Assembly (NCBI GenBank): GCA_009840545.1
Contig: VXNM01000011.1
Coordinates: 1-64,000 of the forward strand
Origin: Gammaproteobacteria bacterium
GTDB lineage: Bacteria; Pseudomonadota; Gammaproteobacteria; Pseudomonadales; Azotimanducaceae
Length of the DNA stretch: 64,000 nucleotides
Reading direction: 5' to 3'
This document shows, one piece after another, positions 38,683-54,500 of the stretch (position 1 is its first letter; each line of letters begins with the position of its first letter). Made by a program: the position numbers and the translations under genes. Below the pieces are notes generated by a model. It had not been told where the DNA came from. It ran no database searches and worked only from the letters and a program-made list of their open reading frames with translations.

Positions 38683-41600
38683 CTAGTTTCCGGCCCGAAA
38701 TCCGATTTGATGTGTGATTCGGGGATTGCCACATTCCGTTCCTTCATAGAATCCAATATTGTCTAGGTCCACGGAAGCGCGATGTTGTGCCAAATCGAAT
38801 GCAACTCGAGCCGTTATGTCGGTCTGATCAACCGTGAACGTATGCTCGAAATCTTGCCATTCTGTGGTCAAGTCGGAACTAAACTGACCTCCGCTTAGGT
38901 TTTGCCATCCGTGCATATTGCGGTCTAGGTATGCGGTGATGGACCTTGCGGAAGTGGCTTTTGCACTATAGCAAAGTGTGTATTCCTGTCCTGCTTCAAC
39001 TGAAACTGTATGGCTGATCTGAGCTCGCCATGGCTGTGACGTGTTAACTGTCGAGATGTTAGCTCTGACAGCTCCACTTCTATGTGAAATACGATTGTTA
39101 TTGAGTTCTACTGTGTTCCAAAATCGCGCTAACGGAAACTCGAAGAACGTAAAGTCGCCTCCACTCACAATCAGATTGCCTGAATAAAAAGGCTTGTCGC
39201 TCTGTTGCGAGAAGAACATGACGTCGTTACTAATCATGCCTCCAGGTGTTTGAATTTGAAGGAAATTCAGACCATAACGAGTTGGCACTTGATTTAGTTC
39301 AACCGAAATCAGTTCATCAGTGCAATTGGGGAGTTCGCCTTCTTGACACGAAACCGTCCCATCTACCAAGAAACCGTTCACGAGAATCGTAGATTCAGGT
39401 TGAATGTGTCGTCCCTTCATGTCGATAGCGAGGCTGTCAGAGACATAAGTAATCTCGACGGTGGGGGACTGTTGCTCGATGCCGCTGTACGTGTTGTCAC
39501 CAATTGTCCAGTACGGCCAAATTGCAGGCTGAGGTGTTTCAAAGCCAACGTTTGTACCAATATGCCCCGTAAACGTCAAAACCAATTGGCCAGTTTCTGC
39601 TAATCCAAGAAGATCTTCTCTTGTGTAACTTGCTACATCTTCGCCGTCTTCGTCGGCTCGATCTACAAATTCGCCATCTTGAAACTCTAAGCTGATTCCA
39701 CTAACAGTTTCTTCTTCGGCATCCGTCACAAATAGACCCTCTGCTCTGAGAACGATAGTTTTGTCTTCTGCGGCAGTAATAAGGACATCAAGAAGGTCAT
39801 TAGTAATCTCAGAATCTGCAGAATCTTCACTTAGCGTCACTTGGCGTGCGTAGGTTCCACTAAATCCAGTGCTGAATTCTAGGACCATGTCCCAATTCGC
39901 TTGCGTGCGAGCTCCTGCGTGGAACCAAATCTCTTGTTCTGGAAGACTTCCGCCCAAATCCATGCCTATGCGCTCTATCAAGTCGATCACATTGAATCTA
40001 GCTTGAGGAGTAACAATCCACCGGTCGTACGCGCCTCGCCATGTTGGAGCGTCCATACCGTTGAATGAGCCTACATCTGCATCCATGTTGTCGGAGGATG
40101 GTGTATTTGTACTGGTAAGGAACGGAGGCTTGTGGCACGCACCGCAGGCTTGAGCACCCGTCGTTATTCCTGAGTCATTCAGGAAATTGAATTCAAAAAT
40201 TCCTGTTTTTGCAGATGGAGAGAGCTCGTTATCGAACGGTCTGTTTGGAGCCGGGGGATAGGGAACGCTGAGAAGGTAGCGAGCCAATGCATCTCGTTCT
40301 GCGCCGTCCAGCAGTCCTGCTTTACCTTCGTCGTTCTCGCCACAGTTTCCCTCTTCGCACATTGTCGTAGCTAGGCTTCCATCGATGAGAACCCGTATGC
40401 AAGCTTCTGGATTGTCTTCATCGCAATTTGGATCTACTGGGTCCCACAAAGAACTAGCATTCACACCGCCGTAGGGGTCACCGGGGATTCCGTCCCAATG
40501 ATAGGGTTGGGTATCTCTTAACCCTCGAGCCGGCATAGTTAGGCGCGGCGGGATTTGTGTGCACCCTGGATGGTCGCACTCTGGAGTATCCAACACCCAG
40601 ATTAGTTGATCCACATTGTTGTCTGGGTGGCAGCTCTCGCATGAAAAAGTTCCTGTTGTCGATGCATTGGCATCGTTGAATGCAATACGTCCTTGTTTGA
40701 CAAGAGTGGGCGTGGGATCCACCAGCGGTACCGACGCCACTACACTTGGTTCCGAAAGCGTCGTCAGATCGATCCGAGAGACAGTGTTTTCGACAACACT
40801 GTGAACCCATGCATGAGATGGTGTGCCATCTTCGTTTGAAACCAAATAGAGACCTCTCGGAACCGGATCCACTTCAATCCTACCTAGAATCGAACCTGTT
40901 CCGACATCCAACACAAACACCATGTCAGACCCTGCAGCGGTTGCCACGACCGTGGAGTCATCATCGCTTATCTGAACGGCGAAGGGAGTTGCCAGAGCCA
41001 TTCCAACTGCCGGATGGTCGGGAGGCAAGGGCTCTAATTCGAAGACTTCAGGACTCTCGCAAGGTAGCGAACTGCAATCCACTTTCGTAATCTGATTCAG
41101 GAAGGCGCGATTCTCCATTTCGGCCATACCGTGCTTTTGTGTGCCTGCTCGACCGTTTTCGACGTTACGTGCATCCGCTTGCGCGATGTAGACATTCCCT
41201 TCCGAATCGACGGTTAGCCCATACAGCAGGGATCCCGTACCTTCAACTACTTCCTCAAGTTGATCAGTTAAAACATTGAAAATAAATAAATCTCTATCGG
41301 GTACTTTTGGATTCTTGACGATGTCAGCATCATAATTCAAAGAGAGCACATTGTTAGTTGTATGGGTTTCTTGAATCGCGTCGTAGGTACACGAGTCTCC
41401 GTCTATATCTTGCGGGTAGCAACCAGAGAGTTGGCTCGTGTTTCCCGATTCAAAGGCAATTACGTAGAGGAACCCATTGCGGACTGTGATGGCTCGAGGA
41501 TCTTGTGCATTGATATCCAAGTGGCCTCGGACAGTATGAGATGGAACATCGATGACTGCGATTCGATTTGAAGGGCCCAATGCGACATACGCCTTCTGCG

Positions 41601-42102
41601 AATTGGCAAACGCTATGCCAACCGGTTCGTCAAAGTTCGTTTGAAGCGTTTCACTATTTACATCCTGCACAGTTGCAATGACTTGGTGGTAGAAGAGGCT
41701 TTCGGGATCGGAGTCGATAACACTAACCGTGTCGGAAATATGATTCGCAACCCAAATTTCCTTGCCATCTGGCCGCACGGCAACACTGACAGGGTCTATG
41801 CCTACATTGATTCGAAGTACAACCTCGTTCGATTCTGAGTCGATTACGTCGAGCGTTCCAGATTGAGTATTTACTGCATAGACCAAGTTCCCGACAGCAA
41901 CAATTGGATCTGCATGAGGACTAGAAAACGTAGGATGCCCAAGGTCTTCATTTGTCAACAGTTGTACGCCGAGCCCGTCATCTGCTCCTGTTGTTGTGGT
42001 TAGAAACAGAAGAGAAAGTGCTATCAGACAGGACAACGTCCTGAGTCGCGCAACCCGTTGTTTTGTCGTGTAATAGCGTTTAGTGGATGTGTCTAATTGC
42101 AT
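38683..42102 (-). CDS. Secreted YVTN beta-propeller protein with di-haem cytochrome c domain and C-terminal CBM-like domain
   Basis: A 1139-residue exported protein: signal peptide (LSCLIALSLLFLTTTTGA), a seven-bladed YVTN/NHL-type propeller (residues about 40-470, repeats such as PVSVAVRPDGKEIWVANHISDTVSVID), a cytochrome-like region with two CxxCH haem sites (CESCH near residue 488 and CGACH near 653), and a C-terminal carbohydrate-binding-module-like beta-sandwich with LDRNMHGWQNLSG and VDLDNIGFYEG. Similar propeller/MauG-type fusions oxidise extracytoplasmic substrates or carry electrons. The ATG at 42102 gives a clean signal. It is divergent from a TonB receptor 204 bp away. Confidence 0.8.
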   Translation of the reverse strand: MQLDTSTKRYYTTKQRVARLRTLSCLIALSLLFLTTTTGADDGLGVQLLTNEDLGHPTFSSPHADPIVAVGNLVYAVNTQSGTLDVIDSESNEVVLRINVGIDPVSVAVRPDGKEIWVANHISDTVSVIDSDPESLFYHQVIATVQDVNSETLQTNFDEPVGIAFANSQKAYVALGPSNRIAVIDVPSHTVRGHLDINAQDPRAITVRNGFLYVIAFESGNTSQLSGCYPQDIDGDSCTYDAIQETHTTNNVLSLNYDADIVKNPKVPDRDLFIFNVLTDQLEEVVEGTGSLLYGLTVDSEGNVYIAQADARNVENGRAGTQKHGMAEMENRAFLNQITKVDCSSLPCESPEVFELEPLPPDHPAVGMALATPFAVQISDDDSTVVATAAGSDMVFVLDVGTGSILGRIEVDPVPRGLYLVSNEDGTPSHAWVHSVVENTVSRIDLTTLSEPSVVASVPLVDPTPTLVKQGRIAFNDANASTTGTFSCESCHPDNNVDQLIWVLDTPECDHPGCTQIPPRLTMPARGLRDTQPYHWDGIPGDPYGGVNASSLWDPVDPNCDEDNPEACIRVLIDGSLATTMCEEGNCGENDEGKAGLLDGAERDALARYLLSVPYPPAPNRPFDNELSPSAKTGIFEFNFLNDSGITTGAQACGACHKPPFLTSTNTPSSDNMDADVGSFNGMDAPTWRGAYDRWIVTPQARFNVIDLIERIGMDLGGSLPEQEIWFHAGARTQANWDMVLEFSTGFSGTYARQVTLSEDSADSEITNDLLDVLITAAEDKTIVLRAEGLFVTDAEEETVSGISLEFQDGEFVDRADEDGEDVASYTREDLLGLAETGQLVLTFTGHIGTNVGFETPQPAIWPYWTIGDNTYSGIEQQSPTVEITYVSDSLAIDMKGRHIQPESTILVNGFLVDGTVSCQEGELPNCTDELISVELNQVPTRYGLNFLQIQTPGGMISNDVMFFSQQSDKPFYSGNLIVSGGDFTFFEFPLARFWNTVELNNNRISHRSGAVRANISTVNTSQPWRAQISHTVSVEAGQEYTLCYSAKATSARSITAYLDRNMHGWQNLSGGQFSSDLTTEWQDFEHTFTVDQTDITARVAFDLAQHRASVDLDNIGFYEGTECGNPRITHQIGFRAGN

Positions 42103-42306
42103 ACTCTCACACTCAGCCAGCATGCGAATGGACTGTAATTCAACCCCGATTGAAGATTAATCATATTCCAAGACATAAACACATTGCAAGTTAACAAGAT
42201 TCTAAGCCTCAAAACTAGTTTGAAGTGAGCATGTCGGGCGTTCTTGAACGACACACCGTTGAAAATTTTTAACATATACACTGCAGCGCACTTCGTGGAC
42301 TCCAAT

Positions 42307-45198
42307 ATGGCTCCTAGCAATATGTGGAGTAGGAGACTCATCTCACTCCTCGTAGTGTCCTTACCTCTCGGATCGCTTCCAGCACTAACTCAAGAGAACG
42401 ACTCGATCCCGACTGCCGACACCGAGATCGAAGAAATGGTTGTAGTCGGTTCGTTAATCAAACGAAGCGAGGTATACGAGGGCAAAGGTCCGGTGCAAAC
42501 ATTAGATGCAGATCTCTTTTCCTCGGTAGGAGCTGCTCAGCCCGTCGACATATTGAGCAGTCTGACTGCAAATACTGGATCCTATCTTGCGACACAGCAG
42601 AACTATCTGCAAGGAGTAGCTCAATTCAGCCTCCGGGGTGTCGGTCTCTCCTCTACATTGACATTAGTCAACGGCCGAAGAGCTGGTTTTGCGCCAGTAT
42701 CTAACGACGTAGGACAAAGTTTCTTTGATATCAACACCTTACCTGTTCTTATGATTGATCGTGTGGAGATACTTCGTGATGGCGCATCGGCAACATACGG
42801 GTCTCAAGCAGTAGCTGGAGTTGCCAATATCGTCACAAGGAGCGGCTTTACTGGACTGGAGCTATCCGGTGGCTTTCGAACCGCTTCCAACACCCAGTAT
42901 GACTTAGGTTTCGCCACTGGAATTGAAACTGAGAAAAGCCACTTGAGCGTATTTGGGTCATGGTTCAAACAGGACGAGAACTTTCGGAGAGAATTCGATT
43001 GGATGATTCCGAGAGCTATTGATCCTAACGGAGACGGTGACATCGTAGAGGGATCGTTCGACTCTGGTCGCGGTTCTCCCGGTAGTTTTAGACGCTCTGT
43101 GGAAAATGCCGACGGCACTTATTCTCCGTTTTCAATTGGCGGTATCGACACTCCACGTTTTCCTGATCCCGACTGTCGAGCAGGAGGTGGGTACCCGAGC
43201 GGATCGCTATGCAGGATGGACTTCTCCGACCAGCGCACAATGATTGCTGCGGAACAGCGTATGCAGTTCTTCATCGAAGGCGAGTATGAGATTGGACCTT
43301 CTGTGACGGTATCGACGGAATTGGGGATTTCGAAAAATGTCATAACAGACCGCGTTGGCAATATGCTCCTCTTTCAAGGCAACGTCGAACGCACCAATGA
43401 GTTCTTCGTGCCTTCAAACCATCCATTTAACTTTTGGACCGACCCCGACAACGACGGTTTGCTCACTTACGTCGCACCCGAAACCTGGATACCTGGAATA
43501 CATGAAGCTGTTTCTGTCGGCTATTTTGGAAGACCTTTGGGAGCGGAGGCTGCAGGAGAGAAATCTGGAGACGAGAAACGAGTATTTCGAAACCATAGAA
43601 CAATGATTGGGCTGGAAGGCGAGCTTCCTAGGGGATGGAATGGAAGCGGTTACGTTTCATTTGCTCGCTCGAACCTTTCTGTGAATTCAGATCGTCATTG
43701 GATAGCAGCTGAATTCGCCAAGGCGATTGCAGACGGTTTATGGAATCCCTTTGGTACTCGTCTGGTTGCACCTGAGCTAGTTACACCAAAAACAGTTGAC
43801 CACGATAGCCTGGACCCTCGATTCGTAGGAAGTCGTGCAGGTAACGAGAAAAGTACGCTGGATTCGTTCGAAACCGTTCGGATTGAATCGGCACGAAGCG
43901 AACAGCAAGTGTTTGAGTTTGTCGCGACGCGCAAAATTTACGAATGGGGACATCAAACGCTAAATCTCGCGACAGGATTGCAGTATCGCAACCTCGAATA
44001 TCGCTACGAACCCGACCCGTTGAATGTCCGTGGCGAAGGACCGCGGGACATACGGGAATTCCCAAGATTTGCGGATCAGACTGTGTGGGCGATCTTTGCC
44101 GAAACATTGACTTACTTTGGCCACAGAGCTGAACTGCAAGTCGCTGCACGCCATGAACGCTACAAAGTGTCGGGTGGAACCACAGATCCGAAAGTTGCAA
44201 TACAGTTTCACATCAATGACACCATTTCATTGCGAAGCTCGTGGGGAACTTCGTTCCAAGCACCCAGTGTCTATCAAGTCGCTGGCAATACCAGCTCTCG
44301 AACACTAACTGATCCGTTTAGATTCGATGCTCAGGGAAATGGAAATTGCACGATCGATTCAAGTGGCGAGATCATCAACCGAGGCGACAACTTTGCCGTA
44401 GTTACAGTGCTACACGGCGGAGGTCTGAAACCTCAAACGGCTCGTTTGGGAAACTTCGGACTGCTTCTGAGACCACTTGGAACTACTTCAATTAGCTTCG
44501 ATTATTGGTCGCTCGACTATCGAAGTGTTATAGCGCAAGGACGTAGTTTTCAGGCGATCGTGGACGACGACTGTCGAGACGATGGCAAGCCTAATGATGC
44601 GCTCGTGCAACGCGACTCCTCAGGGCAGCTCAGCATTGTCACTACACGTTACGAAAACATTGGAGAAGTACGTAGTCAGGGCCTTGACCTGAATTCTCAG
44701 ATTGACATAGATGGATACGTTGGCGCTTTTCAGCTAACTTTCGATGCCACATTGTTGACCAATTTCGATGTTGACTCTGGACAACAGGGATTTATAGAGA
44801 AAGTTGGCAGTCGCAACGACACCAATGGATTCGCACCTACTCCTGAATTGCGGATGAACTTTGGAATTTCATGGAAGCTTCATGGACACGGATCTGGCGC
44901 GGTACTTCGCTTTGTGGATTCGTACAAGAACGACGAGGTAGCGACATTGCCAAAGATCAGCTCTTGGATCACTGTTGATGCTCGCTATAGCTATTCCTTC
45001 CCTAATTTACTGTACGGGAAGGCAACTCTGTATCTTGGAGCACGTAACTTGCTGAATCAAGACCCACCTCCACTCCCAAGCGGACAATCAGGAATTCATC
45101 GATTCAACTTACGTCCAGGCTACGACGGATTTGTGCATGACATTAAGGGACGCACGATGTATATCCGGTTCATGTGGCAACACAATGGAACTCACTGA
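42307..45198 (+). CDS. TonB-dependent outer-membrane receptor
   Basis: A 963-residue outer-membrane barrel with signal peptide (LISLLVVSLPLGSLPALT). After it come the TonB-box-like EIEEMVVVGSLIKRSE and the plug (LRGVGLSSTLTLVNGRRAG, DRVEILRDGASATYGSQAVAGVANI), then about 20 beta strands ending in FMWQHNGTH. Transport of a siderophore, vitamin or oligosaccharide is likely; the ligand is unknown. ATG 42307 is preferred, though 42322 is possible. The adjacent divergent propeller/cytochrome protein and the CoA transferase 59 bp downstream suggest a catabolic gene group. Confidence 0.88.
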   Translation: MAPSNMWSRRLISLLVVSLPLGSLPALTQENDSIPTADTEIEEMVVVGSLIKRSEVYEGKGPVQTLDADLFSSVGAAQPVDILSSLTANTGSYLATQQNYLQGVAQFSLRGVGLSSTLTLVNGRRAGFAPVSNDVGQSFFDINTLPVLMIDRVEILRDGASATYGSQAVAGVANIVTRSGFTGLELSGGFRTASNTQYDLGFATGIETEKSHLSVFGSWFKQDENFRREFDWMIPRAIDPNGDGDIVEGSFDSGRGSPGSFRRSVENADGTYSPFSIGGIDTPRFPDPDCRAGGGYPSGSLCRMDFSDQRTMIAAEQRMQFFIEGEYEIGPSVTVSTELGISKNVITDRVGNMLLFQGNVERTNEFFVPSNHPFNFWTDPDNDGLLTYVAPETWIPGIHEAVSVGYFGRPLGAEAAGEKSGDEKRVFRNHRTMIGLEGELPRGWNGSGYVSFARSNLSVNSDRHWIAAEFAKAIADGLWNPFGTRLVAPELVTPKTVDHDSLDPRFVGSRAGNEKSTLDSFETVRIESARSEQQVFEFVATRKIYEWGHQTLNLATGLQYRNLEYRYEPDPLNVRGEGPRDIREFPRFADQTVWAIFAETLTYFGHRAELQVAARHERYKVSGGTTDPKVAIQFHINDTISLRSSWGTSFQAPSVYQVAGNTSSRTLTDPFRFDAQGNGNCTIDSSGEIINRGDNFAVVTVLHGGGLKPQTARLGNFGLLLRPLGTTSISFDYWSLDYRSVIAQGRSFQAIVDDDCRDDGKPNDALVQRDSSGQLSIVTTRYENIGEVRSQGLDLNSQIDIDGYVGAFQLTFDATLLTNFDVDSGQQGFIEKVGSRNDTNGFAPTPELRMNFGISWKLHGHGSGAVLRFVDSYKNDEVATLPKISSWITVDARYSYSFPNLLYGKATLYLGARNLLNQDPPPLPSGQSGIHRFNLRPGYDGFVHDIKGRTMYIRFMWQHNGTH

Positions 45199-45257
45199 GT
45201 GAAAGTCAATACAGCCTCTGAATATCATTTAAATCGTCAATTTGCTTGAAGTCACCG

Positions 45258-46439
45258 ATGCTTCCACTGAACGACATTGTTGTGCTCGATTTGACAATCG
45301 CGCGCGCTGGACCAACTGCGGTTCGCCTATTGACCGATTGGGGCGCTAATGTCATTCGCATAGAACCACCACCAAGAAACAACGCTGCTATCACTGGGAG
45401 CCGAGACGGACCGGATGAACAAAACCTTCACAGAAACAAACGCAGTCTTTGTCTAAATCTCAAAAGGGAAGAAGGGTATAGAGCATTTGTCAAACTCGTC
45501 GCTCAAGCAGACGTTGTAGTCGAAAACTTTCGTGCTCCCGTCAAAGAACGTTTGAAGGTTGACTATGAATCGTTACGGAGCATAAATCCTCGTGTGATTC
45601 TCGCTAGCATTTCCGGATTTGGACAGACGGGGCCTTACAGTGACCGAGGGGGTGTAGACCAGATTGTTCAGGGAATGTCCGGTCTCATGTCGATCACGGG
45701 ATTCAAGGATCAAGGTCCGGTTCGTGCCGGAATTGCAATTAGTGATACGACGGCGGGAATGTTTCTAGGTCAAGGCATCCTGCTTGCCCTAATTCAAAGG
45801 CAAGCAACAGGCAAAGGTCAGTGGGTTCACACTTCGTTACTTGAAGGCATGTTGAGCAAGTTGGATTTTCAAGGTGCTCGCTACACCATGCATGGTGTAG
45901 TGCCTGAACCGCAAGGCAACGATCATCCGACAATATTTCCGATGGGGACGTTTCACTGCAAGGACGGGCTTGTGAATATCGCTGCTCCGTCCGACAAGAT
46001 GTGGAACGACCTGCTCGACGCAATTCAGGACTCGGAATTGCGAAAGATCGTGAAGTATCAAAGCGTTAGTGGACGAATGGAGCACAAGGAAGAATTGAGG
46101 GCCGATCTCGAGGCTGTCCTGTCTCGATTCACCGTCCATGAATTGGTTGAGTCAGTAAACGAGGTTGGTGTTCCCTGTGGTCCTGTTAACGACATTCGAG
46201 AAGGATTCGAAAATCCTCAAGCACAACACTTGGGAATGAGAAAGCCCGTGTCACACAAGAGACTTGGAAATATTGACCTAATCCGTTCTCCAATACAGAT
46301 GACGCAAAATCCCGATACCTCTAGTCTTAACTGCGCTGCGCCTGACATTGGAGAACATTCCCGAGAAATACTCTCGGAGTTCGGATTTGAGTCGTCACGG
46401 ATTGACGACTTAATTGCTTCCGGAACCGTATTTGGTTAA
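45258..46439 (+). CDS. CaiB/BaiF family III CoA transferase
   Basis: A 393-residue family III CoA transferase: LDLTIARAGPTAVRLLTDWGANVIRIEPP at its start, KRSLCLNLKREEGYRAFVKL, NFRAPVKERL, and the active-site Asp in RGGVDQIVQGMSGLM near residue 139; HTSLLEGML and GVPCGPVNDI follow. It moves CoA between carboxylates without ATP. The ATG 45258 is preferred over TTG 45246. It probably shares the TonB receptor transcript (59 bp apart), so it may activate the imported compound. Confidence 0.9.
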   Translation: MLPLNDIVVLDLTIARAGPTAVRLLTDWGANVIRIEPPPRNNAAITGSRDGPDEQNLHRNKRSLCLNLKREEGYRAFVKLVAQADVVVENFRAPVKERLKVDYESLRSINPRVILASISGFGQTGPYSDRGGVDQIVQGMSGLMSITGFKDQGPVRAGIAISDTTAGMFLGQGILLALIQRQATGKGQWVHTSLLEGMLSKLDFQGARYTMHGVVPEPQGNDHPTIFPMGTFHCKDGLVNIAAPSDKMWNDLLDAIQDSELRKIVKYQSVSGRMEHKEELRADLEAVLSRFTVHELVESVNEVGVPCGPVNDIREGFENPQAQHLGMRKPVSHKRLGNIDLIRSPIQMTQNPDTSSLNCAAPDIGEHSREILSEFGFESSRIDDLIASGTVFG

Positions 46440-46501
46440 CTGAAAGGCTAAAAGCTGGATCAACGCAGGGTTGCTCAGCGAACTGAACTGGGGACTCGGG
46501 A

Positions 46502-46942
46502 TCAAGTAGAGTCGCTTACTGAACGAATACAATTGAGTGTCTCTTCCAACACACTGTCGTACTCTTTGTTGTCAACAACAAAGTCGCCAAAGAGTAACAA
46601 CCCTTTTTTGTCACAGCTAAGCCAGTGTAGGTAAATCCCTGTGGCACTGGCAAGCTCAAGATTCAGTTGATAGGCTGCTGTCGTCTCACCGGGAGCAGTG
46701 GCGGCGCAACGATGAACGATCCATTCGTATGTATGGGTAACGCCACCCCCCATATTGTGTGTATCCGTAACAGTTCCGTCAGTCTTCTCGCACCAAATGT
46801 AATAGCCTTGATAAGCTCCGTCCGCGAACGTTGCTTCTTCGTTTCTATCGCGGGTTAGAAAGATAGTTGCAAGAACTACAGCTGCGGTTAGTAAGATCCC
46901 GATAGCAATTGCGGCCACGATCTTGGTAGTGCCTCTTTTCAT
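46502..46942 (-). CDS. Hypothetical membrane-anchored protein
   Basis: A 146-residue protein with one N-terminal membrane segment (IVAAIAIGILLTAAVVLATIFL) and a periplasmic domain with three or four Cys (YYIWCEKTDG, VHRCAATAP, LSCDKKG, LNCIRS). No family is recognised. It is the last gene of the minus-strand redox cluster, 70 bp after the UGSC selenoprotein; the paired cysteines would suit a disulfide-linked periplasmic fold, but that is inference only. Confidence 0.55.
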   Translation of the reverse strand: MKRGTTKIVAAIAIGILLTAAVVLATIFLTRDRNEEATFADGAYQGYYIWCEKTDGTVTDTHNMGGGVTHTYEWIVHRCAATAPGETTAAYQLNLELASATGIYLHWLSCDKKGLLLFGDFVVDNKEYDSVLEETLNCIRSVSDST

Positions 46943-47012
46943 TCCATATGCTTAAGCATCCTTGCATCTTCCTTTGTCAAAAATCTCCGGGTCTGTCTCA
47001 ATTGTCGGTCAG

Positions 47013-47531
47013 TTAAGACGTAAGTGCCTGGATCACCTCGTCGATACAGCTCTCAGCTTTGTTCCTCATTTCTTCATCCGTAGTTCCCTGAACGGGATGA
47101 TCCACAAATACGCAACGAGCATCTTTCATGCCCAATGCATTGGCTTGCGTCTGAGCTGCGGACTTGAACTCTGTGGAAGCTAGGCTAACTGCTGGTGTTC
47201 CCTGAATCTCGAACCATACTGTGTCATGCAAACTGCACGTAGTACAGGACCCTCAGTCCGCTAACGCTTCAAGCACCACATCGTTGTTAGCCCGTATTTC
47301 TTGCCTAAGTGAGAGTGGAGCTGGTTTTGTAAATGTGGGCTTCGAGTAACGAGAAATTTCGACCTCTGGATATCGCTCCTTAAGGAGTTCCTCGAGTCGA
47401 TCAAGCAATACGTTACCCCGTGGCTTTGCGATGTCTAGCATTGCGACACGTTTCTGTAGGTTCTTCTCTCTTTGTGAAGTAGAACGAACCACAGGTTTGC
47501 GTTCGTCGGTTGGATCAAGAATAGTCGACAT
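47013..47531 (-). CDS. UGSC family selenoprotein (TGA-encoded selenocysteine)
   Basis: One continuous frame of 172 residues interrupted only by TGA (47255-47253) at codon 93. Upstream residues ALAD and downstream GSCTTCSLHDTV give U-G-S-C exactly at the family-defining site; the rest matches UGSC proteins (RPLLDNSK-like LDIAKPRGNVLLDRLEELLKE at the N terminus, PAVSLASTEFKSAA after the site). An ordinary caller makes two genes: 47253-47531 (92 residues) and a TTG-started 47013-47231 (72 residues), which I combine. GGAAGA lies before the ATG. UGSC proteins are linked to thioredoxin-like partners, here at 48107. The catalytic role is unknown, presumably redox. Confidence 0.85.
47217..47252 (-). 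promoter_or_regulatory. Candidate bacterial SECIS region downstream of in-frame TGA
   Basis: The mRNA just after the TGA can form CUGUAC/GUGCAG (47247-47242 with 47238-47233, loop UAC) or UGCAGU/ACUGUA (47237-47232 with 47222-47217, 9-base loop). Position suits a bacterial SECIS element, but bacterial SECIS sequences vary and I cannot fold or score this. Confidence 0.25.
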
Positions 47532-47699
47532 GGGTGTCTTCCAAGAATTGACGGGTAAATCATACTAGGTTGTGCTTGTGGTACTTTCCGTGAAGAAGGA
47601 TTGAACGAAGCTAACTTGCTTTTGCGAAAGCCTATTGCCAAAATATTGGTGTAGACTCAATATTTCATTTGCCGTCGCTTGCTGTACGCTTCTGGTTGG

Positions 47700-47999
47700 C
47701 TAGGACTCAACTGTCTGTAGGAGTTCAGTCGGATTGACAGTCAGCCATGTGTATTCAAGACCTCCAAAATAGCGTTGCTGTTCACTCTCTGTAAGTCGCG
47801 TGGCCAAATCCATTGCTTGGTTCGTTCTTCGAGATTCAATTAGCCTCTCAACTAGCGTACCAAAGACCAGACCCAAGGCGCAGAATAGGGCGAACGACCC
47901 ATAACACCTACACATAGCAGCAATGAGTGCATTGGGGCTGAGACGGAAGAATTGATCCGAATTTTCTAGGGATGAGTGAATCAACGACTCTTCACGCAA
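47700..47999 (-). CDS. Possible small single-pass membrane protein
   Basis: A 99-residue frame with a convincing membrane segment (GSFALFCALGLVFGTLVERL) and a hydrophilic tail that reads like a real protein (SRRTNQAMDLATRLTESEQQR). Start uncertain: the first start codon is TTG, and an ATG 28 codons in would leave a 71-residue protein. It sits between the thioredoxin-like gene and the selenoprotein on the same strand. No family recognised. Confidence 0.35.
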   Translation of the reverse strand: MREESLIHSSLENSDQFFRLSPNALIAAMCRCYGSFALFCALGLVFGTLVERLIESRRTNQAMDLATRLTESEQQRYFGGLEYTWLTVNPTELLQTVES

Positions 48000-48106
48000 A
48001 CAAGAGATGGAAACGTGTTAATCCCATCCCAGTGCGAATTACATAATGATGAGAAAGACTACGTTCTCAAAACACATCATCGATGTCCTACTGTGCTAGG
48101 TTGGGA

Positions 48107-49669
48107 TTAGAATTCGATTTTCCTTGAAACGGGAATGGAACCCATAGGTCCGCTCGCCCAGCCATGAAAGGCTGACGTGAACATACCGGCTTCGGATCCT
48201 GCGAAAACCAGGTGAATATTCTTGGTTGACGCGAATTTTGGAACAGGTCTATTCAACTCCTCCTCGGGCAACCCCTCTAAACGACTTGCTGGTATTCCGA
48301 CTGGGGATTCTTCGTCTTCAAATAAGTCTCGGAGTGGAACAGAAGACGCAGATTGAATCTGTTCTCGTACATCCTGCTTCTTCCATTTACTGCTGGCAAA
48401 CGTGTCTCCGTGTTCGGGACTGACGACTAACAATGTGTCTCCGGCACGGTGTGACTTTATGTGATGCTGAGCTCGTAGTGAGAGCCCCATACTTGTAGCC
48501 AGCTGCTTGCCTTGCCTAGATGCTTGGTCGACAATTAAAGAAGGACCACCAGACATTGCAAATAAAGAGACAACGGAGTCGTTCGGATCGAATCCGCGCT
48601 CCACATGTAGCGGCTCCCAAGGGCTTCGTTCCTCCCACTCAGCAAAGCACATTGTGTACTTCATCGGACTTCCAAGTGTTGTCCGTTCTGTTCCACCAGG
48701 TCTTGCTCCACCTATGTTCCGAACGGCAAGTCTCAATGCTCGGCCAATAGAAGCATTGGCCCGATTACCCTGGCCCAAGACAGACATGCCCATGCCCATT
48801 CCAATTTTGTGACGGATTGGTCCGTTAATCACCATTACAGGCGATGCACCCATGGTGGTTGCAAATACGCCATGACCGTTGAATTCATCGGTACAGACAG
48901 CTTCCAATGCGGCAATTACGACCGGCATGTACTCTGGTTTGCACCCGGCTAATACTGCATTGATCGCAACCTTCTCAACTGTTGCGGGTGCCAAGTTTGG
49001 CGGTACTACAGCAACCTCCTCTTGTGGATCTCGCATTGTTCCAGCAAGCATTCTTAGTACCCGCTCAGGAGTGGGAGGCACCACGGGCAATCCGTCTGTG
49101 AATCCTTGGTCGAACATGAACTCGTGCACATCGTCCTGTAGACCGATTTCAATTTTTCGCGCACGAAGCGGGTTGTTCTCAGATTCGGCGAGAAGACGTT
49201 CGCCAATGATCGGATCTTGAGTCAGCGAACCACATCCGGGACGCCAATCGGGTAAGGCGGACCAATCTATGGCGACCATCGGAAAATGTTTCGAATAGAA
49301 GGACTGCCACTCGTTCTTGTCAAATCCCGTCAAACTGTCTATTTCTTGACCGTTGTTGTCACAAAGAATCACCAACGGTACTGTTTCAACTCCGAAAGCA
49401 AAGGAGACCTTTAGAATCGAGTCATCGAGAATTGTCGCGGAAGGTCTGAATTTGTCGCGGAGTACTGTGTTACCTTCGGCGGTTTGACCTGGCAACAGCA
49501 CCCTAGTGTCGCTTTCTCGTGAAATCGTGTCCACAACAGGAAGTACAAGATTGCAAGTGGGACAATCTTCCTTTACGAAACAAAGTAGAGTCGTTGTTCC
49601 GTTCGGAAACGTGTGATCGACTCCTTCGAGATCTCGAAGGGAAAAGTCGGGAAGGGGATTCGCACGCAT
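48107..49669 (-). CDS. Thioredoxin-like domain protein, partner of UGSC selenoprotein
   Basis: A 520-residue protein. Residues 1-130 are a thioredoxin/TlpA-like domain with the redox-active Cys36-Pro-Thr-Cys39 (CPTC) and a cis-Pro in VETVP; homologues in this group often have selenocysteine at the first position, but here it is Cys. Residues 135-520 form a large second domain with PGCGS (Cys146) and conserved blocks GLPVVPPTPERVLRML, GHGVFATTMGASPVMVI and GMGMGMSVLGQGNRANASIGRALRL. The second domain has no known function to me. ATG 49669 is preferred over TTG 49699. It sits upstream of the UGSC gene and 2 bp from the RraA-like gene. Confidence 0.75.
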   Translation of the reverse strand: MRANPLPDFSLRDLEGVDHTFPNGTTTLLCFVKEDCPTCNLVLPVVDTISRESDTRVLLPGQTAEGNTVLRDKFRPSATILDDSILKVSFAFGVETVPLVILCDNNGQEIDSLTGFDKNEWQSFYSKHFPMVAIDWSALPDWRPGCGSLTQDPIIGERLLAESENNPLRARKIEIGLQDDVHEFMFDQGFTDGLPVVPPTPERVLRMLAGTMRDPQEEVAVVPPNLAPATVEKVAINAVLAGCKPEYMPVVIAALEAVCTDEFNGHGVFATTMGASPVMVINGPIRHKIGMGMGMSVLGQGNRANASIGRALRLAVRNIGGARPGGTERTTLGSPMKYTMCFAEWEERSPWEPLHVERGFDPNDSVVSLFAMSGGPSLIVDQASRQGKQLATSMGLSLRAQHHIKSHRAGDTLLVVSPEHGDTFASSKWKKQDVREQIQSASSVPLRDLFEDEESPVGIPASRLEGLPEEELNRPVPKFASTKNIHLVFAGSEAGMFTSAFHGWASGPMGSIPVSRKIEF

Positions 49670-49671
49670 CG

Positions 49672-50370
49672 CTAGTGGATTTCGGCTTGTTTCCCCCAAG
49701 CGCGTCTTAATGCGTCGAAATCAAAACCAGGTTGTTGAGCGGCTTCTATGACTACGGATTCCAGTCGAGCAATGCGTGCCGCTGCGCTAGGTACGCCCAG
49801 AGCGGCATCTGCAGGAATGACTACTGCTCCATGCTGGTCCGCATGAACAAGATCGCCATCGCTCACTTTCATTCCAGCAACCTCGACGTCTTCTCCGAAA
49901 CTCACTACGTGCACAAATGCATGTGAAGGACCAATTCGGTCTGCCAACATTTGAAATCCTTCAGCAGCGTCCGGAATGTCGCGAACACTTCCGTCGGTAA
50001 TGACCCCTAGGCATCCGAGTCCAAAGTGAATATTGCTGTTCACCTCACCCCAAAAAGCACCGTAGCCGCGGGAGTCGTCGAGATCCTGAATGATGACAAT
50101 CGAGGGTTTAGGACCTGAATCGATATAGGAGTAGTATTGCTGACCCAAGTTTGGGCTCGATAAACTTCGATCTTGTGGCCTTTTTGCCCTGATAGTGGCG
50201 GTTCGTGCATAGCCCACCATACTGCCAAGTTCTGGTCTCGTGCAAACGAGCGGTTCGGTCGTGTATCCATAGCCACGTCTGTCAGGAGCTACAGATTCCA
50301 ACGCATTACACACCGTTGGCGTATCTAGGCTGCAGAGTTTGTCAAGTGTAGCTTGGTCGACCTGTGACAT
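49672..50370 (-). CDS. RraA family protein (HMG/CHA aldolase-like)
   Basis: A 232-residue protein: LDTPTVCNALESV near the N terminus, PSIVIIQDLDDSRGYGAFWGEVN, LGCLGVITDGSVRDIPD and VSDGDLVHADQHGAVVIPADA, matching the RraA/4-hydroxy-4-methyl-2-oxoglutarate aldolase fold. In this group aldolase or carboxylate lyase activity is common, and RNase E regulation is confined to the true RraA branch. The extension in the middle and the length suggest the aldolase-like branch. It starts the minus-strand redox cluster, 2 bp before the thioredoxin-like gene. Confidence 0.8.
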   Translation of the reverse strand: MSQVDQATLDKLCSLDTPTVCNALESVAPDRRGYGYTTEPLVCTRPELGSMVGYARTATIRAKRPQDRSLSSPNLGQQYYSYIDSGPKPSIVIIQDLDDSRGYGAFWGEVNSNIHFGLGCLGVITDGSVRDIPDAAEGFQMLADRIGPSHAFVHVVSFGEDVEVAGMKVSDGDLVHADQHGAVVIPADAALGVPSAAARIARLESVVIEAAQQPGFDFDALRRAWGKQAEIH

Positions 50371-50480
50371 TTGGATATGACTCGAAATTCGGAAATGTCC
50401 ATATTAACAAGTTGTAGCAGAGCGCTCAGTGCCTTCGAGTTTCGCAGTGGATGCTTCCTTGAAGACATGCTCAATTCATA

Positions 50481-50508
50481 TAATCAATTACCTCAATCGA
50501 ATTGATTA
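50481..50508. repeat. Perfect 9-bp inverted repeat upstream of the RraA/UGSC cluster
   Basis: TAATCAATT (50481-50489) and AATTGATTA (50500-50508) are separated by 10 bases. It lies 111 bp before the RraA start (50370, minus strand) and 77 bp before tRNA-Val. TATAAT (50479-50484) overlaps its left arm. An operator for either side is possible. Confidence 0.4.
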
Positions 50509-50584
50509 TTGGAGCTGAACTAAGCAGCCTTGGATAGGTCTTAGTTTTGGCTGCAAGTGGGAGATTGACTAGAGAGATTTCGGA

Positions 50585-50661
50585 GGGTGTTTAGCTCAGT
50601 CCGGGAGAGCGATGGCCTTACAAGCCATAGGTCGTAGGTTCGATCCCTACAACACCCACCA
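50585..50661 (+). tRNA. tRNA-Val (TAC), CCA encoded
   Basis: Acceptor GGGTGTT/AACACCC (50585-50591 with 50651-50657), D stem GCTC/GAGC, anticodon stem ATGGC/GCCAT around CTTACAA, T arm GTAGG-TTCGATC-CCTAC. The CCA at 50659-50661 is encoded. It is followed by tRNA-Asp after 7 bases. Confidence 0.97.
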
Positions 50662-50746: not shown

Positions 50747-51494
50747 CTCTACTCACTTGGTCTTGGATTTCCGAAGGGACCTATGGTGAGCTACGTAAGT
50801 GTGCTCTAACCCCAACGCGTTCACTATTGAATTCCATGCTTGGATCCACTGGATTATTGACGGGTTTTAGATCCGTGACCAGCATGAACCAGTGCAAGAT
50901 ACTCTTTGACAAGACAATTGCCTTGGGTGAATCTCGTCTCTACAGTCGGTGAGATTGGGAATCACAGGATTAGAGAATTTTTCAATTCAGCCAAGATAGT
51001 GAATTATTGTGTGGAAATTTGTTGTTTGTATGCTTAATTAAACACCCACATACTTGGAAACAGCAAAGCTGGCCTCAAATGCGCTAGACTGGTCGGATTT
51101 GTCACTTTTCGAAACATCGAGGCGATTAAACTGTGGTAGTGTCTTGGAGCCATTTCTTGGCATGAGCCTACACTTCGTCTATAATCACATACGCATTACG
51201 GTAAGTCGTACGTTGCATGACAATCATGTGAATTCAAAGCGTATGCCAAATCTAGGCAATATTCAATCCCTTTGAGTTCAAGGGGAGGCAACGCTAATAG
51301 CTGTTGCCGCGCATCAAAATTGAGTGTTGAATTGTCTCCTTTCCCTCCGGATAGAAGCAGTCTGATGTTCTTTGGTGCTAGATAGTCATCGAATGTCCAA
51401 GAACGCAACGACTCGACACACCTGCATTTAGAAATGAAAGTCACTGCAATTGAACTGTAGTAATCCAACCAGAACAACTAACAGAGGATACAAA
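50747..51494. other. Non-coding gap upstream of TonB receptor
   Basis: AT-rich stretch with no ORF I can defend. Short frames on both strands (for example about 51196-51477) have no family resemblance and weak start contexts. It holds the tRNA terminator region and presumably the promoter of the TonB receptor at 51495, but I see no convincing pair of boxes. Confidence 0.6.
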
Positions 51495-54400
51495 ATGGAT
51501 GATGTTCAAAGCACTCTGAAATGGCGAGGAGGTGTGAAATCAAGCGTTTTGCTTGTTTGTGCTTCTTTGCTATTTTCTTTTGGCCTGCCATCCCAAGCGC
51601 AGGAAACTACGGACGAAGAGTTAGAAGAACTCATCGTTACCGGTTCTCGCGTCATTCGAAATGACATGGACAGTTCGGGGCCGCTCGTGCAAATCGATAG
51701 CGAGGAAATCGAATTGCAGGGAACGGTGAGGGTCGAAGACATGCTTCGCAACTTACCGCAAGTTTGGTCCAAACAGAACACAGGTCAGTCAAATGGGGCG
51801 ACTGGAACGGCATCGGTCGAGCTTCGAAATCTTGGAAGCGTTCGTACATTGGTACTAATGAACGGTCGCAGAATGCCGGCCGGTTCTCCCATTGGAGGAG
51901 GTTCTCCGGTTGACATCAACCAGATTCCAGGCAATCTGATCGATCGAGTAGAGATCTTGACCGGTGGTGCGTCAGCTACGTACGGTTCGGATGCTGTAGC
52001 AGGCGTCATCAACTTCATCATGAAGGATTGGTATGAGGGCATCGACTTCGATCTGCAACAAAGTGCATACAGTCATAACAACAGCGACGGATCCATGCAA
52101 GACATCGTCACCGCGAGCGGTTTCGAGCTTCCTGACGACAATGTGACTGACGGTCAAATGACTCAGGCTTCGTTGCTGATGGGAGGCAACATTGATGATG
52201 GTCGAGGCAACATTACGGTCTACGCAACCTATCGCGACATCAAAGCTGTACGTCAAGCGAGCCGTGATTACAGTGCGTGTGCGTTAAACAACAACGCAGA
52301 CGCATGTTGGGGATCTAGCACGATACCTGACGGTCGCTTTACGAACTTTGCAGGTCCTCCGATCAACTTCGATTACAAGGTCGAAGGTACACAGTTCGTC
52401 CCTCGAGCAGGTACGCTGTTCAATTATGGGCCACTAAACTATTTTCAGCGCCCTGACGAACGCTATGCATTCGGGGCATTTGGAAAGTACTCTGTTTCAG
52501 ATCTTTCGGAAGTCTACATTGAGCTCATGTTTATGGACGATCGATCGGTCTCCCAAATTGCACCGTCAGGAGCATTTTTTGTCACAAGTTCCTTGAGTTG
52601 TGCCAATCCATTCCTGAGCGACCAGCAGTATTCGCTACTTACTCAAGATCGCTTGTCGCCAGAGCAACAAACCGAACTTCAGGATTTCCTGGACGGCTTG
52701 CCATCCGATGCAGCTCGTGAAGGATATCTCGACGGCGCATTCTGTCAAAATCGAGAAGACGACTTCATCAACATGTATATCGGTCGTCGAAATATCGAAG
52801 GCGGTCCGCGAAGACAAGACCTCCGACATACCAACTTCCGCGTTGTAGCTGGCATGCAGGGTGATATCAACGACATTTGGCGCTACGACACGTATGTACA
52901 GCGGTCGGTCGTAAGCATGGTGAATACCTACCAGAACGACTTGGGGACAACTAAGATTCGTCGTGCACTAGATGCAGTAAGTGATGCGAATGGAAATACG
53001 GTCTGCCGTTCAGTTCTCGATGGAACGGACACCAATTGTGTTCCGTGGAACATCTTTGAGAGTGGTGCTGTAGACCAGAACATGATCGACTATCTCGTTC
53101 TTCCGTTATTTGCTCGGGGAACTACGGAACAAGAGGTCTTTATGGCTTATGTAGCTGCAAATCTGATCGAGTATGACTGGGTTTTGCCTAGCTCAAGCCG
53201 AGGCGTAGACGTTGTCATCGGATTCGAGAGTCGATCTGAAGGCATGACATTTGATCCTGACGAAGGATATCGAAATGGTGAAGGTGCCGGCCAAGGCGGT
53301 GCAACGAATCCAGTAGCTGGCGAGTACGACGTTAGTGAGTTGTTCCTTGAATCGGTCATTCCAATCGCCGAGGGACGCGACCTAATGGAAGAACTAGACC
53401 TTGAAGCGGGCTATCGTTTTTCGGACTATTCGACCGGCCACACAACTCATACCTGGGGACTGAGACTTAGCTACAGTCCGAACTATGACCTTCGATTCAG
53501 AGGCAGCATTCAGCGAGCTGTTCGAGCAGCCAATGTACGAGAACTGTTCACACCGCAAGGCTTCAACTTATTTGACATGGATGCAGACCCATGCGGCGGT
53601 ACGACCCCGGCACGATCATTGGCAGATTGTCAGAGAAGCGGCGTAACCGCATCGCAGTATGGCAACATCCAACACTCGCCAGCCGGTCAATACAACTTCC
53701 TTCAGGGTGGAAATCCCGACGTGAGTCCGGAGGAATCCGATACGCTTACCGCCGGCGTTGTATGGACGCCGCCAAATCTCTCCAATTTGAGCTTGGCCGT
53801 TGACGTCTACAACGTACGAATTGAGCAGGGGATTTCGATTCTAACGCCCGAATTCATTCTGAACGAGTGTCTCGATGGAGACGACAATCAATGCCGGTTG
53901 GTCAAGCGCAGCAGCGCTCGTGGCGACCTTTGGATTGGGTCTGAAGTTGATTCAAGTGGACACATTGTCGCTTTGAACGACAACTTGGCAGTCGAGGAAA
54001 TAACCGGATTGGATGCAATCATCGATTACTCCTTCACAATTGATTCTGTCGGAACTTTCGACATCCACAATGTCTTTGGGATGCTTACTCAATTTGATAC
54101 CCAAGAACTTGCTTCAGCACCTGTTGAAGATTGTCTTGGTGTTTGGGGAGGAGTCTGCGGTTACCCAGTCCCCAATTTGAGAAACAATTTGAGAGTGACA
54201 GTAGCGACTGTCTACGAACCGCTCGTCGTGAGTGCTATGTGGCGATTCACGGGTGAGATGGATCACCAAGGCGGAAGCCCCGTTACGTTGGACGCTGTTC
54301 ATTACCTTGACGTATCCGGCATTTACACGATCGACGAGCGTACAAGCGTACGAGCGGGAATGAATAACCTTCTCGATGTTGATCCACCAATTGCAGGTAA

Positions 54401-54500
54401 CGGCGCGGGACCATCCATCTCTGGAAACGGAAACGTATTTCCAGGTTCCTATGATGCGTTGGGACGTTACTGGTTCGTCGCATTGCAAGTTAACATGTAA
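51495..54500 (+). CDS. TonB-dependent outer-membrane receptor
   Basis: A 1001-residue outer-membrane barrel with signal peptide (SSVLLVCASLLFSFGLPSQA). Plug segments LEELIVTGSRVIRNDMDSSG, TLVLMNGRRMPAG and DRVEILTGGASATYGSDAVAGVINFI are strong TonB-receptor signatures, and the last strand ends RYWFVALQVNM. Ligand unknown. The ATG 51495 is preferred (AGAGGAT at 51483); an earlier TTG-type start has a basic unrelated N terminus. A hairpin terminator at 54528 follows. Confidence 0.88.
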   Translation: MDDVQSTLKWRGGVKSSVLLVCASLLFSFGLPSQAQETTDEELEELIVTGSRVIRNDMDSSGPLVQIDSEEIELQGTVRVEDMLRNLPQVWSKQNTGQSNGATGTASVELRNLGSVRTLVLMNGRRMPAGSPIGGGSPVDINQIPGNLIDRVEILTGGASATYGSDAVAGVINFIMKDWYEGIDFDLQQSAYSHNNSDGSMQDIVTASGFELPDDNVTDGQMTQASLLMGGNIDDGRGNITVYATYRDIKAVRQASRDYSACALNNNADACWGSSTIPDGRFTNFAGPPINFDYKVEGTQFVPRAGTLFNYGPLNYFQRPDERYAFGAFGKYSVSDLSEVYIELMFMDDRSVSQIAPSGAFFVTSSLSCANPFLSDQQYSLLTQDRLSPEQQTELQDFLDGLPSDAAREGYLDGAFCQNREDDFINMYIGRRNIEGGPRRQDLRHTNFRVVAGMQGDINDIWRYDTYVQRSVVSMVNTYQNDLGTTKIRRALDAVSDANGNTVCRSVLDGTDTNCVPWNIFESGAVDQNMIDYLVLPLFARGTTEQEVFMAYVAANLIEYDWVLPSSSRGVDVVIGFESRSEGMTFDPDEGYRNGEGAGQGGATNPVAGEYDVSELFLESVIPIAEGRDLMEELDLEAGYRFSDYSTGHTTHTWGLRLSYSPNYDLRFRGSIQRAVRAANVRELFTPQGFNLFDMDADPCGGTTPARSLADCQRSGVTASQYGNIQHSPAGQYNFLQGGNPDVSPEESDTLTAGVVWTPPNLSNLSLAVDVYNVRIEQGISILTPEFILNECLDGDDNQCRLVKRSSARGDLWIGSEVDSSGHIVALNDNLAVEEITGLDAIIDYSFTIDSVGTFDIHNVFGMLTQFDTQELASAPVEDCLGVWGGVCGYPVPNLRNNLRVTVATVYEPLVVSAMWRFTGEMDHQGGSPVTLDAVHYLDVSGIYTIDERTSVRAGMNNLLDVDPPIAGNGAGPSISGNGNVFPGSYDALGRYWFVALQVNM

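Follow-up and report, generated by a model that had tools for sequence, protein, structure and literature searches.

The window, the first 64,000 nucleotides of contig VXNM01000011.1 of a gammaproteobacterium of the Azotimanducaceae (assembly GCA_009840545.1), harbours on its minus strand a gene of the UGSC selenoprotein family and, upstream of it, a partner gene that encodes a thioredoxin-like domain fused to a conserved domain, Unknown_1 (Table 1). As far as sequence can show it, the one in-frame TGA of the UGSC gene specifies selenocysteine (Sec) and the product is a UGSC selenoprotein. We lean towards the reading that this protein is homologous, in compact form, to the catalytic C-terminal part of PrdB and GrdB, the Sec-carrying subunits of proline and glycine reductase, and that it forms a two-gene reductase with the partner protein. 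UGSC is itself a published selenoprotein family, among the major ones of the Global Ocean Sampling (GOS) survey, and is not new; the UGSC-containing protein ABI76733.1 of the GOS selenoproteome is listed in two reviews (PMC9312934; PMC13188914). The window gene is a genuine Sec-decoded member of this family and as a finding is ordinary. To judge from the sequences compared, what is added here is the presence of UGSC in 78 of 79 loci chosen by Unknown_1, the usual fusion of Unknown_1 to a CxTC thioredoxin domain, the likeness of the family to PrdB/GrdB and, in some loci, a context of CaiB and RraA-like genes. In the literature on UGSC, mostly in open texts, we found no tested function and no link to PrdB/GrdB, which may be stated elsewhere.

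Table 1. Positions of the features discussed (window coordinates unless another sequence is named)
Feature	Position	Strand	Remarks
UGSC-family selenoprotein gene	47013-47531	-	172 aa with Sec at residue 93
In-frame TGA (Sec)	47253-47255	-	First residue of the UxxCxxC motif (UGSCTTC)
bSECIS apical hairpin	47225-47239	-	6-bp stem; 3-nt loop GUU at 47233-47231; 19 nt from UGA to loop
Spacer between UGSC and partner genes	47532-48106		575 bp; single copy in genome
Partner gene, thioredoxin-like domain fused to Unknown_1	48107-49699	-	530 aa
Thioredoxin-like N-terminal domain	49136-49699	-	188 aa; CPTC at about 49553-49564 (hand count)
Unknown_1 domain	48110-49135	-	342 aa; co-occurs with or is fused to UGSC
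RraA-like gene (PF03737)	49672-50370	-	Overlaps start of the thioredoxin-Unknown_1 gene
Family III (CaiB-type) CoA-transferase	45246-46439	+	PF02515; convergent with UGSC gene
SelW-like candidate	L159:1495-1713; genome C5:628858-629064	+ (L159)	

Decoding of the in-frame TGA

When TGA is read as Sec, the UGSC frame runs open to a terminal TAA with exactly one TGA, at 47255-47253, as the first-pass annotation had described; the Sec stands in the context EALAD-U-GSCTTCSLHD, and residues 93-96 form the U/C-G-S-C motif by which the family is defined. Read as a stop, the TGA divides the frame into two open reading frames (ORFs) at 47253-47531 (92 aa) and 47013-47231 (72 aa). Such a division had been predicted for automatic annotation, and in Paracoccus ferrooxidans the equivalent gene is on record in two pieces, each named 'hypothetical protein', of which the first stops at the Sec TGA. 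Two family profiles match the window protein across the TGA: NF041046 (UGSC_fam; 167 bits against a cut-off of 125, E 2.6e-49, residues 27-171) and PF24696 (161 bits against a cut-off of 25, residues 3-171). By these profiles the family match is far past chance, and the assignment to UGSC with matching sequence on both flanks, already made from the letters alone, is borne out. The match is full-length with Sec at the defining UxxC, and family members carry Sec (many) or Cys (some); nothing essential sets the window copy apart, although it is not fused to its partner gene, from which 575 bp separate it. The genome (3.39 Mb in 14 contigs, 96.5% complete) yielded no other UGSC match.

The first-pass annotation had also supposed that selA, selB, selC and selD lie elsewhere in the genome, and a search found them there. 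A tRNA-Sec with anticodon UCA scored 72.7 bits, above the family cut-off (anticodon TCA by ARAGORN); selA (522.7 bits) and selB (388 bits) are adjacent on a contig other than that of the window; and selD (261.6 bits) lies within a 726-aa frame, the N-terminal part of which, by reading, resembles an Ndh-type oxidoreductase. Fusions of the Ndh-SelD type have been described (PMC2398784).

A hairpin downstream of the TGA agrees with the published model of the bacterial selenocysteine insertion sequence (bSECIS), a check that the first-pass annotation had asked for. The model, as quoted in PMC13188914, asks for a loop of 3-9 nt, a stem of 4-16 bp, a G in the first two loop positions, a spacing of 16-37 nt and a minimum free energy of at most -7.5. 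With the T of TGA counted as base 1, bases 17-22 pair with bases 26-31 around the loop G23, U24 and U25, in which G stands first, and the free energy is -10.2 kcal/mol over 50 nt. One result counts against the element: the hairpin is no more stable than dinucleotide shuffles (z 0.36), and the case for a SECIS therefore rests on conservation instead. This was assessed in 78 sequences, the window and 77 TGA-site domains, of which 70 are distinct over 48 nt. Loop bases G23 and T24 (U24) are invariant (78/78); we take them to correspond to the bases so numbered in the fdhF element of E. coli. At codon 8 after the TGA, serine is always AGT (62/62 distinct sequences) and cysteine always TGT (8/8), whereas serine at codon 3 is written with six different codons. 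The synonymous positions 18 and 21 are G in 75 and C in 76 of the 78 sequences respectively. The summed pairing was attained by one in 1000 synonymous-codon permutations, a figure from which relatedness is not removed and in which the margin is small (7.20 versus a mean of 7.13); and two of the eight pairs tested form in just 63-71% of sequences.

Related loci were obtained by a scan of the GTDB-species collection with a profile of the C-terminal domain of the partner (profile A2), which gave at least 584 relatives; the best 80 were used and represent 79 distinct loci, assigned by record title to Gamma-, Alpha- and Deltaproteobacteria, Chloroflexi, Actinomycetota, Acidobacteria and others. A UGSC hidden Markov model (HMM) located UGSC in 78 of these; the lone locus without it (L111) has its partner gene just 0.2 kb from the contig end, and in L081 UGSC is truncated ahead of the Sec site. 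Among the 78 nearest domains that are readable, 77 have TGA at the Sec site and one has TAG. The TAG case, Candidatus Blastococcus massiliensis (L072:9266-9268; also L125), keeps the same SECIS hairpin intact downstream, and the best tRNA-Sec match in its genome (64.2 bits) has the anticodon CTA (CUA) and is labelled tRNA-Pyl by ARAGORN. This fits the UAG-decoding Sec system of the Geodermatophilaceae, for which UGSC-motif selenoproteins and a CUA tRNA-Sec have been reported (PMC5330540); the window genome, by contrast, uses TGA and a UCA tRNA-Sec.

In the class of the window, UGSC occurs in six of 369 genomes (its own included) with 15 domains, 14 with TGA (the window's among them) and one with Cys (L025, CGLC). 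Unknown_1 was found by tblastn in 24 plasmid records, which include all 15 with UGSC by tblastn, and 18 of the 24 were examined: 17 have a UGSC domain, with TGA at the Sec site in three, Cys in 13 and the site lost in one. The Cys-type carriers are haloarchaea, Arthrobacter, Embleya, Roseovarius, Neorhizobium and Variovorax. Hence the first-pass expectation that relatives would keep Sec or Cys at this codon stood, with TGA or TAG in the nearest and TGA or Cys in the distant ones, and one degenerate exception (MGTS, below). As both TGA and Cys forms occur, Sec and Cys swap at this site, which fits a catalytic selenol. A tree of the two forms (66 rows, quick method) has nine label changes by parsimony, at least three of them forced by well-supported branches; the direction of the changes is unsure owing to long branches.

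The partner gene and Unknown_1

The upstream gene had been described as a thioredoxin-like protein of the kind that travels with UGSC. This holds for about its first 188 residues, which give weak matches to MauD, thioredoxin and DsbE models (E 2.6e-6 to 0.005), but the other 342 residues form a separate conserved domain. It is probably the domain named Unknown_1 in PMC2398784, a paper in which the fusion of UGSC with Unknown_1 is already reported. The 79 loci contain 83 Unknown_1 domains; 75 of them are preceded by 120 aa or more of N-terminal sequence, in which CxTC is present in 72 cases. Where Unknown_1 and UGSC lie on the same strand, with the nearest upstream ATG or GTG taken as the start, the gap is 137 bp or less in 71 of 77 pairs (median 24 bp) and 15 pairs overlap by 4 bp. 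In the class of the window, 11 of the 15 UGSC domains stand in a fusion protein with Unknown_1, nine of these in one genome (G332; L023 and L027-L034), where all nine fusion genes have TGA. Several of the G332 fusions start with signal-peptide-like stretches (by eye), which suggests exported selenoenzymes.

Unknown_1 itself had no convincing relative in Pfam (12 sequences scanned), NCBIfam (55 scanned) or the PDB sequences. Over 55 sequences, Asp, Asn, Arg and Glu are among its invariant residues, whereas Cys is not.

The spacing of the window pair is unusual (575 bp versus the median of 24 bp in the 77 related pairs). The spacer holds a 99-aa ORF with no family match; that it is a repeated mobile element was rejected, as there is no second copy in the window, the related loci or the genome. 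A scan of 46400-50600 for promoters and terminators found no more than in shuffles.

Kinship with PrdB/GrdB and competing readings

Fifty-one of 92 UGSC proteins were scanned against Pfam and NCBIfam, with matches counted at E up to 10. In NCBIfam, 28 of the 51 matched glycine reductase selenoprotein B (TIGR01917), 27 GrdF, 14 TIGR01918, seven GrdH and four PrdB; the next unrelated family matched three. The best TIGR01917 match is that of the UGSC relative L021 (E 2.5e-6), in which residues 68-164 align with positions 322-408 of 431 with the Sec within; at 26.7 bits against a cut-off of 602 it falls outside the GrdB/PrdB families as these are delimited. Searches of the PDB sequences with UGSC and GrdB-like profiles gave no match of use. 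Profile comparison by hhalign gave the following. Against ten GRDB-like proteins of other genomes, the UGSC profile scored 40 (probability 68%), with the reversed and eight shuffled controls at or below 17.5. Against four PrdB proteins (Peptoclostridium, Terrisporobacter and Enterococcus gilvus as annotated; Acetoanaerobium identified by similarity) it scored 46 (90%), and against the two sets jointly 50 (91%), with Sec aligned on Sec and controls of 16.8 or less (20 column shuffles) and 15.9 (reversal). An HMM built from PrdB only detected 21 of 91 UGSC domains at E below 0.1 and none of 1,070 controls (979 neighbour ORFs and 91 reversed sequences); with the limit relaxed to E 10 it detected 81 of the 91, with 12 of the 979 neighbour ORFs and two of the 91 reversed sequences (14/1,070).

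The likeness to PrdB (TIGR04483) and to the GrdB group (TIGR01917, TIGR01918, GrdF, GrdH) comprises the UG[ST]C motif, the UxxCxxC pattern and about 50 following residues that align with UGSC. Three of the four PrdB proteins have UGTC and one has CGTC; position 99 of UGSC, which completes UxxCxxC, is Cys in 40 of the 51 proteins, that of the window included. The UxxCxxC pattern has been described for GrdB (PMC13188914). The differences are that UGSC proteins are about 170 aa long where the models span 238-435 positions, score far below the cut-offs of these models, and have as their partner Unknown_1, which is not detectably PrdA/GrdE. Taken at the level of the UGSC family, the alignments indicate homology to the catalytic region of PrdB/GrdB, Sec on Sec, and because of this resemblance UGSC is probably a thioredoxin-fed reductase subunit.

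Membership of UGSC in the PrdB/GrdB superfamily would imply a different partner, one that would bind or activate the substrate without a pyruvoyl group. Unknown_1 as PrdA/GrdE was rejected as unsupported; given the lack of similarity to these and the lack of an invariant Cys, a substrate-activating group of the pyruvoyl type would be absent or replaced. For the known enzymes, glycine and D-proline reductase are described as unusual in breaking selenium-carbon bonds; glycine reductase uses the dithiol of thioredoxin, and proline reductase a dithiol and a pyruvoyl group, the dithiol in the author's view not being thioredoxin (PMC10298544). For UGSC, we infer that Unknown_1 binds and positions a substrate of the organic-acid or amino-acid type and that the UGSC selenolate would attack this substrate and accept a carbon or leaving group from it. 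The neighbouring Cys of UxxC would then resolve the intermediate as a selenenylsulfide, after which the partner's CPTC thioredoxin domain (in other lineages, a separate TrxA/TrxB) would regenerate the selenolate with electrons ultimately from NADPH; the product may enter coenzyme A (CoA)-dependent catabolism via CaiB and an RraA-type lyase. In weighing this reading we count the recoding machinery, the SECIS conservation, the co-occurrence, the fusions and the family profile similarity to PrdB/GrdB as established; that Unknown_1 is the substrate subunit is deduced, as are the chemistry, the source of the electrons and the pathway. The selenium-dependent redox module proposed in the first-pass annotation is supported to this extent, and is sharpened to a thioredoxin-Unknown_1 partner and a PrdB/GrdB-like UGSC family.

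Whether UGSC and Unknown_1 make up a third, unrecognised branch of PrdB/GrdB, thioredoxin-fed, pyruvoyl-free, two-component and cleaving a carbon-heteroatom bond in organic-acid catabolism, we regard as an even bet. Such a branch would use Sec or Cys by lineage (haloarchaea included), would have many paralogues in some genomes and would work outside the strictly anaerobic Stickland metabolism in which the known PrdB/GrdB enzymes operate. The UGSC carriers Arthrobacter, Variovorax and haloarchaea are mostly aerobes. With a partner gene and a likely enzyme superfamily in hand, the function of UGSC becomes directly testable: which substrate needs Sec, and is the rare carbon-selenium chemistry known from glycine and proline reductase at work in UGSC?

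Several results weigh against the reductase reading. For the window protein (P0001), neither NCBIfam nor Pfam gave a GrdB/PrdB match up to E 10, so that the link rests on the UGSC family, and PF07355 is absent among the matches listed for the 51 UGSC proteins. Removal of nine motif columns lowers the hhalign match with the GRDB-like set from 68% to 10% (score 40 to 28), which means that much of this signal is the active site. Compared with two PrdA sequences and a GrdE-like one, Unknown_1 showed no similarity to these pyruvoyl subunits (probability 0.1%). UGSC lies off-strand (L103, L115) or 7.4 kb distant (L096) in three of the 79 loci, and a Haladaptatus plasmid stretch (L150) has Unknown_1 without UGSC. 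A UGSC-Unknown_1 fusion on a Sporomusa termitida plasmid (L151:5320-7044) reads MGTS, with both catalytic residues lost, and is probably a non-redox version. TrxB is found near just one of the 79 loci, the majority of these having the thioredoxin fusion, and the CaiB and RraA neighbours described below, which are common genes, occur in a minority of loci.

The published view of UGSC is that of a thioredoxin-like fold, which runs counter to the PrdB/GrdB kinship and favours a competing account: UGSC would be a generic thioredoxin-fold thiol/selenol oxidoreductase, acting as an antioxidant or in disulfide exchange, with the thioredoxin-Unknown_1 protein merely its reductant. The UxxC motif, the thioredoxin-like domain of the partner and the failure of P0001 to match GrdB/PrdB models also agree with it. 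Yet the lists of matching families for the 51 UGSC proteins (Pfam, 20 families listed; NCBIfam, 25 of 28) contain no thioredoxin-family model, while a GrdB model matches 28 of these proteins; some neighbours encode CoA-transferases, lyases and carboxylate transporters; and nine UGSC-Unknown_1 genes in one genome are a better fit to substrate-specific enzymes than to a housekeeping redox protein. We consider this account unlikely. More doubtful still is that the pair is an accessory of selenium metabolism, as a selenium carrier, sensor or detoxifier. Both selA and selB occur in 18 of the 79 loci, five of which also have a selD-like match (three over a length like that of Ndh-SelD), and selB lies near the UGSC pair in Paracoccus ferrooxidans; but the other 61 loci, several of them short contigs, gave no selA, selB or selD match, the selAB of the window genome sits on another contig, and the pair persists with Cys replacing Sec in haloarchaea, Arthrobacter and others. 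Finally, that the TGA is a true stop, leaving a pseudogene or just a 92-residue product, is highly improbable, and a pseudogene or sequencing error was rejected, since, although the standard-code ORFs break at the TGA and the stability of the hairpin is ordinary, TGA is kept at this codon across many groups, the genome has the full sel machinery, the protein is conserved on both sides and the SECIS loop is constrained at the nucleotide level.

Neighbouring genes and other selenoprotein candidates

A CaiB homologue occurs in eight of the 79 loci and in five of the 18 plasmid stretches, and lies convergent directly after UGSC in L040, L041, L043 and L046. An RraA-like homologue occurs in four of the 79 loci (L039, L040, L041 and L043; 66-71% identity), always directly before the partner gene, and also in the haloarchaeal stretch L144, where the order is RraA, CoA-transferase, Unknown_1, UGSC, Unknown_1. 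Parts of tripartite ATP-independent periplasmic (TRAP) or tripartite carboxylate transporters, CoA ester lyases and acyl-CoA dehydrogenases stand near the pair in several stretches. The CaiB and RraA-like neighbours of some loci may point to organic-acid catabolism.

Among the plasmids, trxB scored above the cut-off within the same gene run in three fusion-free records, from Roseovarius, Arthrobacter (also with trxA) and Variovorax SRS16; weaker TrxB-like proteins, below the cut-off, lie near the pair in three more of the scanned records. By tblastn, a TrxB-like gene was found in nine of the 18 plasmid stretches, a count which includes that of the query itself and some genes several kb off, as opposed to one of the 79 loci. 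The thioredoxin fusion thus appears to replace trxB linkage, a contrast which is only suggestive because the plasmid set and the 79 loci differ in taxonomy.

Large genes resembling TonB-dependent receptors flank the UGSC region of the window at 42244-45198 (+) and 51450-54500 (+; the latter putative), and perhaps serve uptake for the same pathway. The first adjoins a gene for a 1146-aa protein (38683-42123, minus strand) with YVTN beta-propeller repeats, a CBM_4_9 domain and, by eye, heme-type CxxCH motifs.

Two other selenoprotein families, SelW-like and formate dehydrogenase alpha, were checked in the window genome. The single above-cut-off, full-length match to formate dehydrogenase alpha has no internal stop. 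A SelW-like gene (Rdx, PF10262) has one in-frame TGA in a CxxU motif (CNSU; N-terminus MDVKITYCNSU) and is a second selenoprotein candidate; its presence makes it unlikely that UGSC is the sole selenoprotein of the genome. Elsewhere in the class, GrdB/PrdB-like genes with in-frame TGA (L035:1351-2568 and L038:1201-2100, with UPAC and UPVC) are candidate selenoproteins of the PF07355 group.
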